From assembly GCA_019637395.1 (NCBI GenBank), contig JAHBVR010000033.1, forward strand, positions 1-43,306: a DNA stretch of 43,306 bases, given 5' to 3'. Made by a program: the position numbers and the translations under genes. The notes under the pieces are model-generated. The model made no database searches. It saw nothing but the letters and a program-made list of their open reading frames with translations, and was not told the DNA's origin. Origin of the DNA: Vulcanimicrobiota bacterium. GTDB lineage: Bacteria > Vulcanimicrobiota > Xenobia > Xenobiales > JADMJV01. Positions 29,561-37,485 of the stretch are shown piece by piece. The stretch's first letter is position 1; each line of letters opens with the position of its first letter.

Positions 29561-30559
29561 ATGGCCACACTCACCAGCAAGAGCAAGCTCGAAGAAATCT
29601 ACGACCGCATCAAGACGCATGTCCCCGCGCTCGAATGGGCCACCATGATTCCCCTGATCGAGCGCATCTGGCAGCTCAAGGCCGAGAAGAAGGCCGTCAT
29701 TCTGGCCCACAACTACCAGACCCCCGAGATCTACTACGGCGTGGCCGATTTCACCGGCGATTCGCTGGCCCTGGCCCAACAGGCCGCCGGCAGCTCGGCC
29801 GAAGTCATCGTGATGGCCGGCGTTCATTTTATGGCCGAAACCACCAAATTGCTCTGCCCGAGTGCTACCGTGCTCATTCCCGACGCCCGGGCCGGCTGTT
29901 CGTTGGCCGAATCCATCAGCGGCGCCGACGTGCGCAAGTTGCGCGCCCAATACCCGGGAGTGCCGGTGGTGACCTACGTCAATACCAGCGCCGAGGTCAA
30001 GGCGGAAAGCGACATCTGTTGCACTTCAGGTAATGCCCTCAAGGTGGTGGAGTCCCTGGGCGTTCCCCGCGTCATCTTTATCCCCGACCAGTACCTGGCG
30101 GCTAACGTGGCTCGTGAAACCGGCGTGGAAATCATCACTCACCCGGGCAGTTGCATGGTTCACGAGCAGTTCACGCCGGGCGATTTGCGTGAGCTCCGCG
30201 TGCTCAACCCGGGCGTCACGTTGGTGGCTCATCCCGAGTGCCCGCCGGAAGTTTGTGATGAGGCCGATATGTCCGGCTCCACCGCTGGCATGGTCGAGTT
30301 TCTCAAGCGCGAGCGCCCGGCTAAGGTGGCCCTCATCACGGAGTGCTCCATGAGCGATAACCTGGTCTCGCAGTTCCCGCAGACCGAATTTATTCGTCCC
30401 TGCAATCTGTGCCCGCACATGAAGCGGATCACTTTGCAGAAGATCGTGCGCAGCCTGGAAACGATGCAGGTTCCCGTGGAAATCGAGCCGACCCTGGCCG
30501 CGCGCGCTCGCACAGCCGTCGAACGTATGTTGGCGGTGGGCAGACAGGCAGGCAAGTGA
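29561..30559 (+). CDS. nadA: Quinolinate synthase NadA
   Basis: A 332-aa enzyme condensing iminoaspartate with dihydroxyacetone phosphate to quinolinate, step two of de novo NAD synthesis, using a [4Fe-4S] cluster. The three cluster cysteines fit C113 (ARAGCSLAE), C227 (HPECPPE) and C284 (NLCPHMKRI). Other family motifs: ILAHNYQTPEIY, VHFMAETTKLL, SGSTAGM. Full length for the family. AGAGGAA precedes ATG 29561. Its stop overlaps the nadB start (TGATG). Confidence 0.95.
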   Translation: MATLTSKSKLEEIYDRIKTHVPALEWATMIPLIERIWQLKAEKKAVILAHNYQTPEIYYGVADFTGDSLALAQQAAGSSAEVIVMAGVHFMAETTKLLCPSATVLIPDARAGCSLAESISGADVRKLRAQYPGVPVVTYVNTSAEVKAESDICCTSGNALKVVESLGVPRVIFIPDQYLAANVARETGVEIITHPGSCMVHEQFTPGDLRELRVLNPGVTLVAHPECPPEVCDEADMSGSTAGMVEFLKRERPAKVALITECSMSDNLVSQFPQTEFIRPCNLCPHMKRITLQKIVRSLETMQVPVEIEPTLAARARTAVERMLAVGRQAGK

Positions 30560-32115
30560 TGTCTGATCGTTTTGATGTTCTCGTGATCGGCGCCGGCGTG
30601 GCCGGCATGTCGGTTGTTCACAGTCTTTTACACTCGGCCCCCAGCCTCAAGGTGGGGTTGGTCACCTTGCAGGTTCCGGGCCAGGCCGGAGCCACTCCCT
30701 GGGCTCAGGGCGGCGTGGCCGTGGCCTGGGGGGAGGACGATAGTCCCGCCTTGCATACCCAGGACACGCTGGCGGCTGGTGCCGGGCTGTGCCGTCCCGA
30801 GGCAGTGGATGTGCTGACGAGCGAAGGGCCGCAGCGCATTCAGGAATTGCTGGACATGGGGGCCCGCTTTGACACTCGTTCGGACGGAACTCTCGAGTTA
30901 ACTCGGGAGGCCGCTCATCAGCGGCGGCGCGTGGTGCACGCCGGCGACGCCAGCGGACGGGAAATGGCTCGCGCCCTGGCTCGCGCCCTGCCCGCCTCGG
31001 TGCGATTGATCTACGGGCAATTGACGAGCATTCTCACCCAGGGGTCGCGGGTGGTGGGCGTGCAGCTCGACGGCCAGCACAGCCTGGCTGCTCCCCAGGT
31101 GGTATTGGCCAGCGGCGGGGTTGGTCAGCTGTTTGCGGCCACCACCAACCCGGCCGGAGCCGAAGGTCAGGGCCTGGCCCTGGCTTTCGAAGCCGGCGCC
31201 CACCTGCGCGATCTGGAGTTTGTACAGTTTCATCCGACGGCCCTGGCTGGCGGGGCTAACGCCTCCAATCTGCCGCTGTTGACCGAAGCCTTGCGCGGAG
31301 AGGGGGCCCGGCTCATCGACGAAACGGGGACAGCCTTCATGGCCCAGTATCACCCGGCCGCCGAACTGGCTCCTCGCGATGTGGTGGCTTTTGCTCTCTG
31401 GCAGCATCGCCAGCGTGGTCACCAGACCTTGCTGGATGCTCGCGCTCTGCCGGTGGCTGAACGTTTCGCCCAGGTTCACGCTCTGTGTGTGACGGCCGGT
31501 TTCGACCCGGCCAGGCAGCCGCTGCCGGTAACCCCGGCCGTCCACTACCACATGGGTGGAGTGGCGGTGGATCTGTGGGGACGCACCAACGTGCCGGGGC
31601 TGTGGGCCTGCGGAGAGGTTTCCAGCACGGGTGTGCACGGAGCCAACCGGCTGGCTTCCAATTCGTTGTTGGAAGGGCTGGTTTTCGGGTACCGCGTGGG
31701 CCAGGCACTGACCGGCGTTGACTTCCGCCAGGCTGGCTGTCTGCCCGCCGTTCCGCAGTTGGAACTGCGCCAGGATCCGCTGGCCATGGCCCGTGTGCGC
31801 GAAATTCTCTGGTCTGGTCTGGGTCTGGCTCGTTCCCAGCAGGGCATGGAGAAGGGCCTGGCCGCTCTCGAGCGCCTGCGCGCCCGACTCTCCGCCTGCG
31901 GGTCGACCGCCCACACGGTGGCTTCGCTGATGCTCAGCTCCGGCCTCTTCCGCCAGGAAAGCCGCGGCGCTCATCGCCGCCTTGACTACACCCAGACCAG
32001 CCCGCATTGGGCCGGCCATACCCTGCTGGTGCCTGGACAGGCGGTCCGGATGCAGCCCCTACAAACCACTTTCGCTCAGGAGTTTAGAGAAGATGTTGTT
32101 CGCACTTCAGTATGA
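30559..32115 (+). CDS. nadB: L-aspartate oxidase NadB
   Basis: A 518-aa flavoenzyme converting L-aspartate to iminoaspartate, the substrate of NadA. It has the FAD dinucleotide motif VIGAGVAGMS at the N-terminus, WAQGGVAVAWG, LASGGVGQLFAATTNP, FVQFHPTAL and the family hallmark GVHGANRLASNSLLEGLVFG. ATG 30559 overlaps the nadA stop; the frame extending further upstream is spurious because it lies inside nadA. The 3' end overlaps nadC by 23 bases. Confidence 0.95.
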   Translation: MSDRFDVLVIGAGVAGMSVVHSLLHSAPSLKVGLVTLQVPGQAGATPWAQGGVAVAWGEDDSPALHTQDTLAAGAGLCRPEAVDVLTSEGPQRIQELLDMGARFDTRSDGTLELTREAAHQRRRVVHAGDASGREMARALARALPASVRLIYGQLTSILTQGSRVVGVQLDGQHSLAAPQVVLASGGVGQLFAATTNPAGAEGQGLALAFEAGAHLRDLEFVQFHPTALAGGANASNLPLLTEALRGEGARLIDETGTAFMAQYHPAAELAPRDVVAFALWQHRQRGHQTLLDARALPVAERFAQVHALCVTAGFDPARQPLPVTPAVHYHMGGVAVDLWGRTNVPGLWACGEVSSTGVHGANRLASNSLLEGLVFGYRVGQALTGVDFRQAGCLPAVPQLELRQDPLAMARVREILWSGLGLARSQQGMEKGLAALERLRARLSACGSTAHTVASLMLSSGLFRQESRGAHRRLDYTQTSPHWAGHTLLVPGQAVRMQPLQTTFAQEFREDVVRTSV

Positions 32116-32974
32116 CGAAATTTTGGTCAACGCCCTGCGTGAAGACCTGGGACGGGCCGGTGATCTGACCAGCAATTTGACGGTGCCGGCGGCGGCTCGC
32201 TGCCAGGCCAACCTGGTGGCTCGCCAGGCCGGCACGGTAGCCGGGATGGAAGTGGCCGCCCGCGTTTTCCGCTTGCTCGACTCCGAGATTCAGGTGGAGC
32301 GCAGGGTGGAGGAAGGGGCCCGGGTCGAGGCCGGCACCGTGCTGGTTGAGGTTTCCGGTTCGGCCCGCACCATTTTGGCCGGCGAACGTACCGCCCTCAA
32401 CTTCCTGGGCCGCATGTCGGGGATTTCCCAGGCCACCGCCACCGGCGTGGCCCAACTCAACGGCACTCGCGCCCGGCTGGTGGCTACCCGCAAAACCACT
32501 CCCGGTCTGCGCATGCTGGAAAAGTGGGCCGTGCTCAGCGGAGGCGGGGAAAGCCACCGCTTCGGTCTGGACGATGGTATTCTCATCAAGGACAATCATG
32601 TGGCTCTGGCCGGTGGCGTGGTGGAAGCTCTGAAGCGAACGCAGCAGGGCGCACCCCACCTGATCAAAATTGAGCTGGAAGTAGACCATCTACAGCAAAT
32701 GGAGGAGATTCTCCAGGTGCTGCAGGCCAACCCCTCTTTGCGCCTGGATGCGATGCTGCTGGATAACTTCACGCCGGCCCAACTACGCCAGGCGGTGGAG
32801 CGGGTGCAAGGACGCTTTATTCTGGAGGCCTCAGGAGGATTGACATTGGATCGACTCAGTGAAGTGGCCGCCAGCGGCGTCGACTTGATCAGCCTCGGAG
32901 CCCTGACCCACAGCGTGCGCAACTTCGATGTGGCGCTGGACGTGGTGGAGTCGCGCCAGCCGTCGAAGCGTTAG
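32093..32974 (+). CDS. nadC: Quinolinate phosphoribosyltransferase NadC
   Basis: A 293-aa enzyme converting quinolinate and PRPP to nicotinate mononucleotide. Hallmarks: ATRKTTPGLR, HRFGLDDGILIKDNH, IELEVD, MLLDNF, EASGGLTLD and SLGALTHS. ATG 32093 lies inside the end of nadB, with AGGAG about 10 bases upstream. The gene completes the nadABC set in one transcript, so the whole route from aspartate to NaMN is encoded here. Its end overlaps the convergent gene by 4 bases. Confidence 0.95.
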   Translation: MLFALQYDEILVNALREDLGRAGDLTSNLTVPAAARCQANLVARQAGTVAGMEVAARVFRLLDSEIQVERRVEEGARVEAGTVLVEVSGSARTILAGERTALNFLGRMSGISQATATGVAQLNGTRARLVATRKTTPGLRMLEKWAVLSGGGESHRFGLDDGILIKDNHVALAGGVVEALKRTQQGAPHLIKIELEVDHLQQMEEILQVLQANPSLRLDAMLLDNFTPAQLRQAVERVQGRFILEASGGLTLDRLSEVAASGVDLISLGALTHSVRNFDVALDVVESRQPSKR

Positions 32975-33826: not shown

Positions 33827-34096
33827 AGGATATATCGTGCTGTGGCTCTGTTGCTTGGACCAGAGAACCGAAGTCTCGCTGTAGGAGAGGAGGCTACTCG
33901 AGCGTTTCATGTCCCGCACCTGGACATAGCCCTGGCGGCCGCTCTGGGGTGTCGGCCCTGCGCTGCTTGGACTTCACGGATTTAGTCGGATGTTCACATT
34001 TTGACAACATGATTCACGAACTTGTTACTTCCCGAGTGGTTTTCAGCTTGCCAGATACGCTATCCTGAAAAAAATCTGAATGAGGGAGTCCATTCT
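33827..34096. other. Intergenic region upstream of the repeat-protein/radical SAM operon
   Basis: No convincing gene in 270 bases. It holds a perfect -35-like TTGACA (34001-34006) with a weak -10, a second -10-like TATCCT (34061-34066), and a small hairpin ATGTCC (33909-33914) with GGACAT (33922-33927). Promoter(s) for the downstream operon probably lie in the last 100 bases, where the DNA becomes A/T-rich. Confidence 0.4.
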
Positions 34097-34561
34097 ATGC
34101 AGATCGATAGCAGCGTATCCGGTTCCAAGCAGGTCCTGCCCAAGCGCCCCGCCGCTGGCCGCTCCGAGCAGGTCAAGAAGGCCGCCGGCAATGCCAACCG
34201 GACTTACGGATTTCGCAACAAGGCCATGGATTCGGTGAATCTGTCTCGCGATCTGAAAGATTGGGGCAAGGTTGGGCCCAATCTGGCCCAACCCGTCTAC
34301 GGCGCTCCCATGCCTTCCGAGCCAAGAGGAGGCGCTCAACCGGTCTACGGAGCCCCCATGCCTTCCAGCCCGGGTATTGCCCAGCCGGTCTACGGCGCTC
34401 CGATGCCCTCCAATCCCTTCGATCCGAAGGGTAGCAGTCCGGCTCAGCCGGTCTACGGTGCCCCCATGCCTTCCAATCCTTTTGAGCCGAGAGGAGGCGC
34501 CCAACCGGTCTACGGTGCTCCCTTCAACCCGGGGCCTGACTTCGGGGCAGCCTTCCAGTAA
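34097..34561 (+). CDS. Putative multi-core RiPP precursor with five AQPVYGAP repeats
   Basis: A 154-aa protein. Residues 1-63 are a polar, lysine-containing leader-like part with DSVNLSRDLKDWG near its end. Residues 64-142 carry five AQPVYGAP units (at 64, 80, 95, 116 and 135), four continuing with MPS, separated by short spacers such as NPFEPRGG. There is no signal peptide or membrane segment. It ends 6 bases before a radical SAM/SPASM gene, the classic setting for a radical SAM-modified peptide. The V-Y-G tripeptide resembles the X-Y-G site of known splicease substrates. ATG 34097 has GAGGGAG upstream. Alternatively it is a structural Pro-rich repeat protein; the RiPP role is inferred. Confidence 0.65.
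   Translation: MQIDSSVSGSKQVLPKRPAAGRSEQVKKAAGNANRTYGFRNKAMDSVNLSRDLKDWGKVGPNLAQPVYGAPMPSEPRGGAQPVYGAPMPSSPGIAQPVYGAPMPSNPFDPKGSSPAQPVYGAPMPSNPFEPRGGAQPVYGAPFNPGPDFGAAFQ
34286..34522 (+). repeat. Five tandem AQPVYGAP-coding repeats
   Basis: Five degenerate copies with start-to-start spacing of 16, 15, 21 and 19 codons. The Gly-Ala-Pro codons differ at third positions between copies (GGC GCT CCC, GGA GCC CCC, GGC GCT CCG, GGT GCC CCC, GGT GCT CCC) while the amino acids stay fixed. The peptide rather than the DNA appears to be conserved. Confidence 0.85.
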
Positions 34562-34567
34562 ACTTTT

Positions 34568-35869
34568 GTGACCGTAGCCCAGGAACTCGCCAACGACGCC
34601 GGTGTCGTGCGTCGCACTCATTCCTATGCGGTTTGGGAAATCACCCTGAAGTGCAACCTGGCTTGCGGTCACTGTGGCTCGCGAGCCGGTAGCACTCGCG
34701 TTAAAGAACTGACCACCGAGGAATGCTTCGATCTGGTTCGCCAGATGGCCGAAGTCGGTATCACCGAGGTCACATTGATTGGAGGCGAAGCTTACCTGCG
34801 GCGTGACTGGCTGGAAATCGCCAGGGCCATCACCGACCACGGCATGATCTGCAGTATGACCACAGGGGGCTACGGCATTTCCCGAGCGGTGGCGGGCAAG
34901 ATGCGGGAAGCAGGGTTGAGCACCGTCTCGGTTTCGGTGGACGGTATGCAAGCCACCCATGACGAGCTGCGCGGGCGCAAGGGTAGCTGGGAGGCATGTT
35001 TCCGGACTCTGAATTTTCTGCGTGAGGAAGGCATCTACACCGGCGCCAACTCTCAGATCAACCGGTTGTCGGCCCGAGAGTATCCGATGCTTTATGAAGA
35101 ACTCTACAAAGCGGGTATTCGCGGCTGGCAATGGTCGATGACCGTGCCCATGGGCAACGCGGTGGAGAACAACAAGATCTTGCTACAGCCCGCCGAGCTA
35201 CTCGACGTCTTCCCTATGCTGGCACTGGTAGTGCAGCAGGCTGCCCGCGACGGAGTCTCCGTGCAGCCGGGCAATAACGTCGGATATTATGGCCCCTACG
35301 AGCGGTTGCTGCGCAACATCGGCAATCCGCTGGGAGATTTTCTCTGGCAGGGCTGCAAGGCCGGCCTCAGCACCATCGGCATCGAGGCGGACGGCGCCAT
35401 CAAAGGTTGTCCCTCGCTGCCCACGGCTGCCTACAAGGGCGGGAACATTCGAGAGCGCAGCCTGTACGACATCGTGACCCGCGCGCCTCAGTTGAACATC
35501 AACGAGCACGAGGGCACCCCCGAGGGAGTCAAGCATCTCTGGGGATTCTGCCAGAGTTGCGAGTACGCCGAGACCTGCCGGGGCGGTTGCACCTGGACCA
35601 GCCACGTGTTTTTTGACAGGCCCGGCAACAATCCATATTGCCATCACCGGGCTCTGGTGCATGCCGAACAGGGGCTGCGCGAACGCGTAAAACAGATCCG
35701 AGGTGCCAGCGGACTGCCTTTCGACAACGGGGTTTTCGAACTGCGCACCGAACCGCTGGAGGCCGAGTGGGAAGGCGACGACGAACTCCACTTCACCTGG
35801 GAATCGGTGCGGTGGCCGGAACGGTGGGACCCTACCCGACAGCAGCCTGAGGAAGAAGTATCGAGCTAA
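34568..35869 (+). CDS. Radical SAM/SPASM peptide-modifying enzyme
   Basis: A 433-aa radical SAM protein. The SAM-binding [4Fe-4S] motif is C29-x3-C33-x2-C36 (CNLACGHC); TLIGGEAYLR is the following GGE-type motif. A SPASM domain supplies C263, C281, C328, C331, C337, C341 and C358, enough for two auxiliary clusters. Such enzymes modify ribosomal peptides (thioether, C-C or C-O links, epimers, tyramine excision). GTG start, no clear ribosome binding site, so probably coupled to the upstream repeat-protein gene. The 115-aa gene starts at the base after its stop. Predicted substrate: the YGAP repeats. Which chemistry it performs cannot be read from the sequence. Confidence 0.9.
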   Translation: MTVAQELANDAGVVRRTHSYAVWEITLKCNLACGHCGSRAGSTRVKELTTEECFDLVRQMAEVGITEVTLIGGEAYLRRDWLEIARAITDHGMICSMTTGGYGISRAVAGKMREAGLSTVSVSVDGMQATHDELRGRKGSWEACFRTLNFLREEGIYTGANSQINRLSAREYPMLYEELYKAGIRGWQWSMTVPMGNAVENNKILLQPAELLDVFPMLALVVQQAARDGVSVQPGNNVGYYGPYERLLRNIGNPLGDFLWQGCKAGLSTIGIEADGAIKGCPSLPTAAYKGGNIRERSLYDIVTRAPQLNINEHEGTPEGVKHLWGFCQSCEYAETCRGGCTWTSHVFFDRPGNNPYCHHRALVHAEQGLRERVKQIRGASGLPFDNGVFELRTEPLEAEWEGDDELHFTWESVRWPERWDPTRQQPEEEVSS

Positions 35870-36217
35870 ATGGAAAACGTCTACCTGCTCAAGTTGGGCG
35901 AAGACCCTAACCTGATCAAGACCGTGTTGCAGCGGCTTTGTTTGAAGGATGCCCCCTACTACGTGCGCGTGGCCACGCTGGCCCCGATCAGCAACTTCGG
36001 TTATCCGGAAAGCGCGGAAGGAGCGCTGCTGGCCCTGACTCCCGAGGGCATCACCTTCGGCGTGCAGAGCGATCCCCACATCCCCCGCTCTTTCATTCCC
36101 TGGCAGAACGTGGCCTATGTGGCTGACGGCGACATGATGAAAGACTACTCGGACTTCCGCGCCGAATATCCCGACGCCAGTTGGGAAGAGTTCTTAGCTT
36201 CCCAAGAAGCGAGCTAG
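35870..36217 (+). CDS. 115-aa accessory protein of the radical SAM operon
   Basis: A 115-aa protein whose ATG directly follows the radical SAM stop. Early part MENVYLLKLGEDPNLIKTVLQRLC looks like a strand and a helix; the central part (ALLALTPEGITFGVQSD, then FIPWQNVAYVADG) looks like a small beta barrel; the C-terminus is acidic. No cysteine motif or membrane segment. A peptide-binding (RRE-like) or chaperone role would fit its place, but I do not recognise the family. Confidence 0.75.
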   Translation: MENVYLLKLGEDPNLIKTVLQRLCLKDAPYYVRVATLAPISNFGYPESAEGALLALTPEGITFGVQSDPHIPRSFIPWQNVAYVADGDMMKDYSDFRAEYPDASWEEFLASQEAS

Positions 36218-36778: not shown

Positions 36779-37074
36779 AACCTGACCATAGGCGGCAGAA
36801 TGGCGTTGACCTCTCAGTTCGCAACCATGGTCGAGGGCGCTGGCGGCCAGGTAGGCGTCATTAACCAGAGGACCAGGCGATTTCTCCTGAAGGTAAGGAT
36901 ACACTGGCACCAGCGCGAGCCGCCGGAAAAAATATGAAAGTTGTGTTGCGTCAATAAACATTTGGCGAAAGTGGTTCTGTGTGACGGCGTGTTAACACTT
37001 TGGTAACAAATGACGGTTGTCTCATGGAACATACTGTCAGCGAAGCAAACTTCGCCAACCAGGAGGCAATATCA
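36779..37074. other. Divergent intergenic region
   Basis: No gene is supported in these 296 bases. The right half (36930-37020) is locally A/T-rich and should hold the promoters of the two divergent genes. A perfect 10-bp palindrome lies at 36989-36998. Confidence 0.4.
36989..36998. promoter_or_regulatory. Palindrome GTGTTAACAC
   Basis: A perfect 10-bp palindrome 77 bases upstream of the gene at 37075, within the A/T-rich part of the divergent region. It could be an operator; one copy is seen, so this is weak. Confidence 0.25.
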
Positions 37075-37485
37075 ATGGCTAGTTCTATCGGTGGTAATTT
37101 CAATGTTCCGGGCAACAAACAGATTCAGCCCAACCGCCACACCGGCGCTAAACCAGCCCAGAATGAAGTAGCCGCACCCGGCGATCAGGTACAGCTCAGC
37201 GGGCCACAGGCTCCCGCTGTCGAGAAGCAGACCCGCTCTCTTCAGGCCGACCCCGCTTCGGTCCCTACCGGGGGCTTCGAAATCGCCATTCGCAGCGAAA
37301 AGCCCGGGGTGCAGAATTCCCCCGACCGCCTGCTCATGAGCGGCGTTCAGGAAATCGGTGGCTATACCCCTCCCGCCGACGGCAGCGGCGTCACCGGTCT
37401 GAACTCCATCAACTCGGTGGTCAGTTCCGGAATGTTCCAGGGCCTCAACGGCCAATACGGCCAGCGCAGCCTCTTCGGCGCCTGA
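37075..37485 (+). CDS. Small hypothetical protein with DQVQLSG motif
   Basis: A 136-aa polar protein without signal peptide, rich in Pro, Gly, Ser and Gln. It begins MASSIGGNFNVPGNKQIQPN and contains PGDQVQLSGP near residue 40. A perfect AGGAGG 8 bases before ATG 37075 fixes the start and suggests strong expression. A strong bidirectional terminator follows. Disordered character and the D-x-V-x-L-S motif are shared with other proteins of this window. Not recognised. Confidence 0.65.
   Translation: MASSIGGNFNVPGNKQIQPNRHTGAKPAQNEVAAPGDQVQLSGPQAPAVEKQTRSLQADPASVPTGGFEIAIRSEKPGVQNSPDRLLMSGVQEIGGYTPPADGSGVTGLNSINSVVSSGMFQGLNGQYGQRSLFGA

Follow-up and report, generated by a model that had tools for sequence, protein, structure and literature searches.

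A candidate five-site tyramine-splicing operon without PlpY in a bacterium of the phylum Vulcanimicrobiota

The operon and its repeat-bearing precursor

The window analysed here is a stretch of 43,306 nucleotides from a bacterium of the phylum Eremiobacterota, named Vulcanimicrobiota at NCBI. Three open reading frames on its + strand at 34097-36217 form one tight operon that encodes a 154-aa precursor with repeated units (34097-34561), a 433-aa radical SAM/SPASM enzyme (34568-35869) and a 115-aa protein, here called Y2 (35870-36217). The ATG of the precursor gene at 34097 is preceded by a Shine-Dalgarno-like GAGGGAG at 34082-34088 (+ strand, recognised by eye only). The enzyme gene starts with a GTG at 34568, 6 bases past the precursor stop, and the Y2 reading frame begins with zero gap on the first base after the TAA of the enzyme gene. 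This arrangement is as the original prediction described it, including the five AQPVYGAP units of the precursor and, in the enzyme, the CNLACGHC motif with seven SPASM cysteines.

A reading of the neighbouring open reading frames, part of which were scanned against family libraries, revealed no recognisable exporter or peptidase directly next to the operon, and promoter, terminator and Rfam scans returned nothing above chance. Upstream, nadA-, nadB- and nadC-like genes of NAD synthesis (29561-32974) run towards the operon with no evident link to it. The protein encoded at 37036-37485, with the C-terminal end NGQYGQRSLFGA, has a D-x-V-x-L-S segment resembling the DSVNLS of the precursor; an export-type N-terminus (D.V.LS) common to the two proteins was considered genome-wide and rejected, as it has no significant relatives in the genome.

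The precursor contains exactly five AQPVYGAP units, located on the + strand at 34286-34309, 34334-34357, 34379-34402, 34442-34465 and 34499-34522 and spaced 16, 15, 21 and 19 aa apart, with V-Y-G as the predicted splice site. Six nucleotide columns vary across the five 24-base units, all at third codon positions and with zero amino-acid differences, which indicates that the repeat is kept as protein rather than stemming from a recent duplication of DNA. The segment ahead of unit 1 (aa 1-63; 34097-34285), which contains KQVLPKRP, is the probable recognition or leader region. The precursor has no match in NCBIfam and no significant match in Pfam, so that the nitrile-hydratase-type leader, whose absence had been part of the original prediction, and the Nif11 leader are indeed missing as far as NCBIfam can tell. 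A search of 14 further genomes from the order turned up no homologue, and the precursor was thus found in one genome only.

Family of the enzyme, its relatives and its paralogs

The radical SAM cluster motif (CxxxCxxC; CNLACGHC, 34652-34675, + strand) contributes Cys29, Cys33 and Cys36 of the enzyme, and the SPASM region (35354-35641, + strand) holds seven C-terminal cysteines at residues 263, 281, 328, 331, 337, 341 and 358. Both PF04055 and PF13186, the latter matching the SPASM region, exceed their Pfam cut-offs. Among 81 NCBIfam matches the highest is TIGR04103 (nif11-class peptide radical SAM maturase 3), with 665 bits and an E-value of 2.4e-200, followed by a runner-up at 401 bits. The score stays under the curated cut-off of 725 bits, which is reached neither by any congener nor by any genome of the phylum or of two other sampled groups. 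We take the InterPro entry IPR026482 to correspond to TIGR04103. In a review, the Pleurocapsa tyramine splicease PlpX is assigned to IPR026482 (PMC11002830). PlpX was not among the sequences fetched, and membership therefore rests on the cyanobacterial relatives and on the family statement of the review. Judged by its sequence, the enzyme is most likely a PlpX-family splicease, and the likeness to PlpX proposed earlier has become a family assignment to TIGR04103, with close cyanobacterial relatives beside PxYG precursors.

The 80 relatives fetched in a scan of GTDB species genomes are 61-69% identical to the enzyme and nearly all cyanobacterial, with loci from Nostoc, Calothrix, Moorena and others. 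In 71 of the 80, a Nif11-type precursor with YG sites adjoins the enzyme gene. These precursors carry one to four sites behind the Nif11 leader, mostly of the PxYGVV type (for example PMYGVV or PLYGVV), and three of three cyanobacterial precursors tested matched TIGR03798. Homologues of the enzyme had been expected to neighbour a repeat protein: an XYG precursor does lie beside most of them, but most have only one to four sites and no repeat. It is therefore the XYG site, and not the repeat, that is the conserved partner feature of the enzyme family; the motif is constant while all else in the precursors varies. Across the 80 loci, [PA]xYG-type motifs occur at 2.13 per 1000 aa in same-strand reading frames no more than 1.5 kb from the enzyme and at 0.056 per 1000 aa in frames more than 2 kb away, a 38-fold enrichment that leaves chance no serious explanation for the pairing. 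Proline occupies position -2 in 109 of 176 sites of the relatives, and V, A and P are tolerated at X, +1 and +2, with V at X being rare in the cyanobacterial sites (6/176). The P-V-Y-G-A-P of the window fits these preferences, which support the earlier proposal of each V-Y-G unit as a predicted target.

Two further splicease loci, B and C, are present in the same genome, each pairing an enzyme with a multi-YG protein; together with the XYG precursors that adjoin the relatives, they bear out the predicted pairing of enzyme and repeat protein. Locus B (L002:1426-3992, C33) encodes a Pro-rich precursor of 293 aa with ten QP[ML]YGVV units, a Y2 homologue transcribed divergently upstream, and a cupin-like gene downstream of the enzyme. 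This layout is common to two congeners, and the ten YG sites are kept in all three species (L002, L088, L089). Locus C (L003:2725-3102 and 1555-2718, C25) also occurs in the congener G004 (L097) and in another genus of the class (L102). Its precursors have LLPRKSW, LLPRKPW or LMPRAAW near the start and then a probable helix; beyond the helix lie a membrane or lipobox-like segment and the V[YH]G[GA]P sites, of which each precursor has one to three; the L003 precursor combines an LLPRKSW start with the sites VYGGP, VYGAP and a degenerate VHGAP. The L003 enzyme lacks the C-terminal ~30-45 residues that other compared spliceases keep, and no ATG, GTG or TTG start lies ahead of its cluster motif. 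Its start is probably a CTG just past the precursor stop that is conserved with L097. An apparent in-frame TGA within this enzyme gene was actually the precursor stop in the same frame.

In trees, the enzymes of the operon (A) and of locus B are sisters with support of 0.97-0.98, and the C enzymes branch outside the group of A/B and the cyanobacteria. More distant are a second Eremiobacterota group and the Myxococcota enzymes with zinc-ribbon YG-repeat proteins. A single clade of all PlpY-less enzymes had support of 0.66, was lost under wider sampling, and is not retained. The Myxococcota enzymes (L118-L134) score about 503-540 bits to TIGR04103 and mostly lie beside sets of proteins, often Asp-rich, in which a Cys4 zinc-ribbon-like N-terminus is combined with a lipobox-like segment and two to five YG[AG]P sites. 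In the second group of the phylum (L103-L107), the more distant enzyme relative is accompanied by small proteins whose only site, PPYGPxI (or AFYGVI), is N-terminal. Short precursors with a common leader AL.EVE...R.GVRAG and a single C-terminal PxYG were seen at L116:1094-1375, L117:1102-1359 and L085:4736-4951, where the locus has no PlpY and the enzyme has a C-terminal extension.

PlpY, Y2 and the question of a splicing partner

After the enzyme gene, 76 of the 80 relatives have a gene for a small protein in which an LPRsAWns segment is conserved. From its position and size we infer that this protein is PlpY, whose reported small size fits (PMC12710340). The four loci without it (L024, L029, L059 and L085) are none of them recorded as cyanobacterial, and L024 and L029 correspond, by identical match coordinates, to the congeners G002 and G004. 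A search of the operon in the window found no PlpY, and neither did a search of the whole genome (best E-value 1.15), in which cyanobacterial controls were found at 1e-19 and 1e-24. The VLPKRP start of the precursor was considered as a PlpY module in cis and rejected, as its PlpY profile score was equalled by 39 of 300 shuffles; what it keeps is just a short motif likeness to PlpY. At locus C, the PlpY core profile scores 9.4-10.5 bits on L003 and L097, where the best of 300 shuffles each reached 4.7, and 5.0 bits on L102, where it was 2.6. Among 4815 reading frames of the loci, L[LM]PR.[AS]W occurs outside the PlpY family in the L003 precursor only (also present as L101). These sequences suggest that, at locus C, substrate and PlpY-like segment are fused in one protein.

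Y2 and the B-locus proteins form a family with 38-42% identity. Of 149 genomes of the phylum searched by profile, 3 carry this family, in four copies that each lie beside a type A or B splicease. It was not found in eight other genomes with a splicease, including all six cyanobacterial genomes tested. No sequence relation between Y2 and PlpY was detectable with the PlpY profile, and the PRxxxPWQN..AY segment of Y2, tried as a diverged PlpY, scored no better than shuffles. Y2 has no sequence relatives in the PDB. Two AlphaFold runs on only four sequences gave mean pLDDT values of 50 and 70, with disagreement among the five models of the second, and comparison of the models by Foldseek (best E-value 0.74) and VIA-align (Z 3.4) assigned no fold.

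The simplest reading of this splicease-linked, lineage-restricted distribution is that Y2 may have taken over from PlpY; the chance that it serves as a splicing partner is about one half. Nearly as plausible is that Y2 is a self-protection, regulatory or carrier protein and that recognition resides wholly in the N-terminus of the substrate. Leader-independent splicing of short tags has been published (PMC10533398), and some relatives appear to lack both proteins, namely L059 and L085, searched for both, and L135 and L136, searched for PlpY; this indicates that enzymes of this type can do without PlpY and, where tested, without Y2. The precursors at L059, L135 and L136 have [VIL]LPR near the N-terminus, at which the window precursor has VLPK (shuffle frequency 0.0026). 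Against a role apart from splicing stand the location of Y2, which occupies with zero gap the position of PlpY after the enzyme, and its retention near the B locus in three species. A wider scheme of partner exchange, in which cyanobacteria use PlpY in trans, A and B use the unrelated Y2, C uses a PlpY-like segment in cis at the front of its membrane-anchored VYG substrate, and A is a five-site PlpY-independent splicease with a new type of partner, is put forward tentatively, as somewhat short of an even prospect.

Proposed reaction and comparison with known systems

We consider it likely that the operon is a five-site tyramine-splicing system of the spliceotide type, without a classical leader, independent of PlpY, and with recognition through Y2 and/or the N-terminus. 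Gene structure, enzyme family, the conservation of XYG sites beside the family, the lack of a Nif11 leader and of PlpY, and the linkage of Y2 are established from the sequences; the chemistry, its action at all five sites, what Y2 does and what the product is for are inferred, as follows. The 154-aa protein would be the substrate of the radical SAM/SPASM splicease, which would excise a tyramine equivalent, C8H9NO (135.068 Da), at each V-Y-G and rejoin the chain. Up to five valines would thereby become alpha-keto-beta-amino acids, with a mass loss of up to 675.34 Da in all. The enzyme would act without PlpY and would probably recognise its substrate through the N-terminal segment of the latter, through Y2 of the same operon, or through both. 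The product would be a Pro-rich protein bearing several alpha-ketoamide groups, with protease inhibition as its likeliest use. Elastase-type proteases prefer Val at P1 behind Pro at P2, and a Pro-Val-ketoamide would suit them.

The chemistry of PlpX-type enzymes has been described (PMC11002830, PMC10373908), and inhibition of proteases by spliced products has been reported (PMC10373908, PMC11117315). Splicing without a leader is also established, and works on the short tag GGPIRPGYGLPI (PMC10533398). This tag and the AQPVYGAPMP of the precursor have the same P-X-Y-G-X-P frame which, with the site preferences of the cyanobacterial relatives, makes each of the five VYG units a likely splice site. 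Alternatively, the enzyme may modify the Tyr-Gly units by some other radical SAM chemistry (crosslinking, oxidation or epimerisation) that arose after its split from PlpX. A score below the equivalog cut-off, an A/B lineage that has Y2 instead of PlpY, and the presence among the best PDB sequence matches of SkfB and PqqE, which carry out other reactions, would be in keeping with such a change, but the 61-69% identity to cyanobacterial enzymes adjoining PxYG precursors, and the retention of the XYG motif in precursors otherwise divergent, make it improbable. Although no leader, transporter or peptidase is recognised beside the repeat protein and low-complexity repeat proteins are common, the idea that it is a Pro-rich structural or surface protein placed beside the enzyme by accident is very hard to reconcile with three enzyme-YG-protein pairings in one genome and with the pairing in most of the 80 relatives.

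Spliceases install reactive alpha-ketoamides in proteins and already serve in protein labelling, with PlpY supplied alongside PlpX. If tyramine splicing by the operon is true, a natural PlpY-free enzyme working on five short identical sites would reveal what minimal recognition consists of, and would provide a way to introduce many ketoamides simultaneously. Moreover, with three paralogs in one genome that have differing substrate layouts, the question of how sites are found can be tested by part swaps.

The Plp system of Pleurocapsa sp. PCC 7319 (PlpA/PlpX/PlpY) shares with the operon the enzyme family assignment, an X-Y-G in the precursor and a small accessory protein in the cluster (PMC11002830, PMC10533398). 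In Plp precursors, however, MYG or LYG sites follow a nitrile-hydratase or Nif11 leader, in contrast to five VYG sites and no such leader in the operon. The characterisation of PlpX was done in the presence of PlpY; the genome of the operon has no PlpY, and the unrelated 115-aa protein stands in its place. The cyanobacterial TIGR04103 loci resemble the operon in an enzyme of 61-69% identity and a neighbouring PxYG precursor, and differ in the Nif11 leader, the one to four mostly PxYGVV sites and the PlpY-like LPRsAW protein of 76/80 loci. Locus B (L002, L088, L089) is similar in its sister enzyme clade, its Y2 homologue and its multi-site Pro-rich precursor, and dissimilar in its ten QP[ML]YGVV sites, its divergent upstream Y2 and the cupin-like gene after the enzyme. 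The Myxococcota loci (L120-L131, L133, L134) likewise have two to five sites per protein, mostly [AP]xYG[AG]P and including PVYGAP, but in most of these proteins the N-terminus is Cys4 zinc-ribbon-like and a lipobox-like segment is present, and their enzymes are clearly more distant (407-461 bits against the window enzyme); the repeat idea is thus not unique to the operon. Neither the chemistry, which is already known, nor multi-YG proteins, which other lineages also have, set the operon apart; its apparent novelty lies in joining a five-site substrate that has no classical leader with the lack of PlpY and with a candidate partner specific to the lineage.
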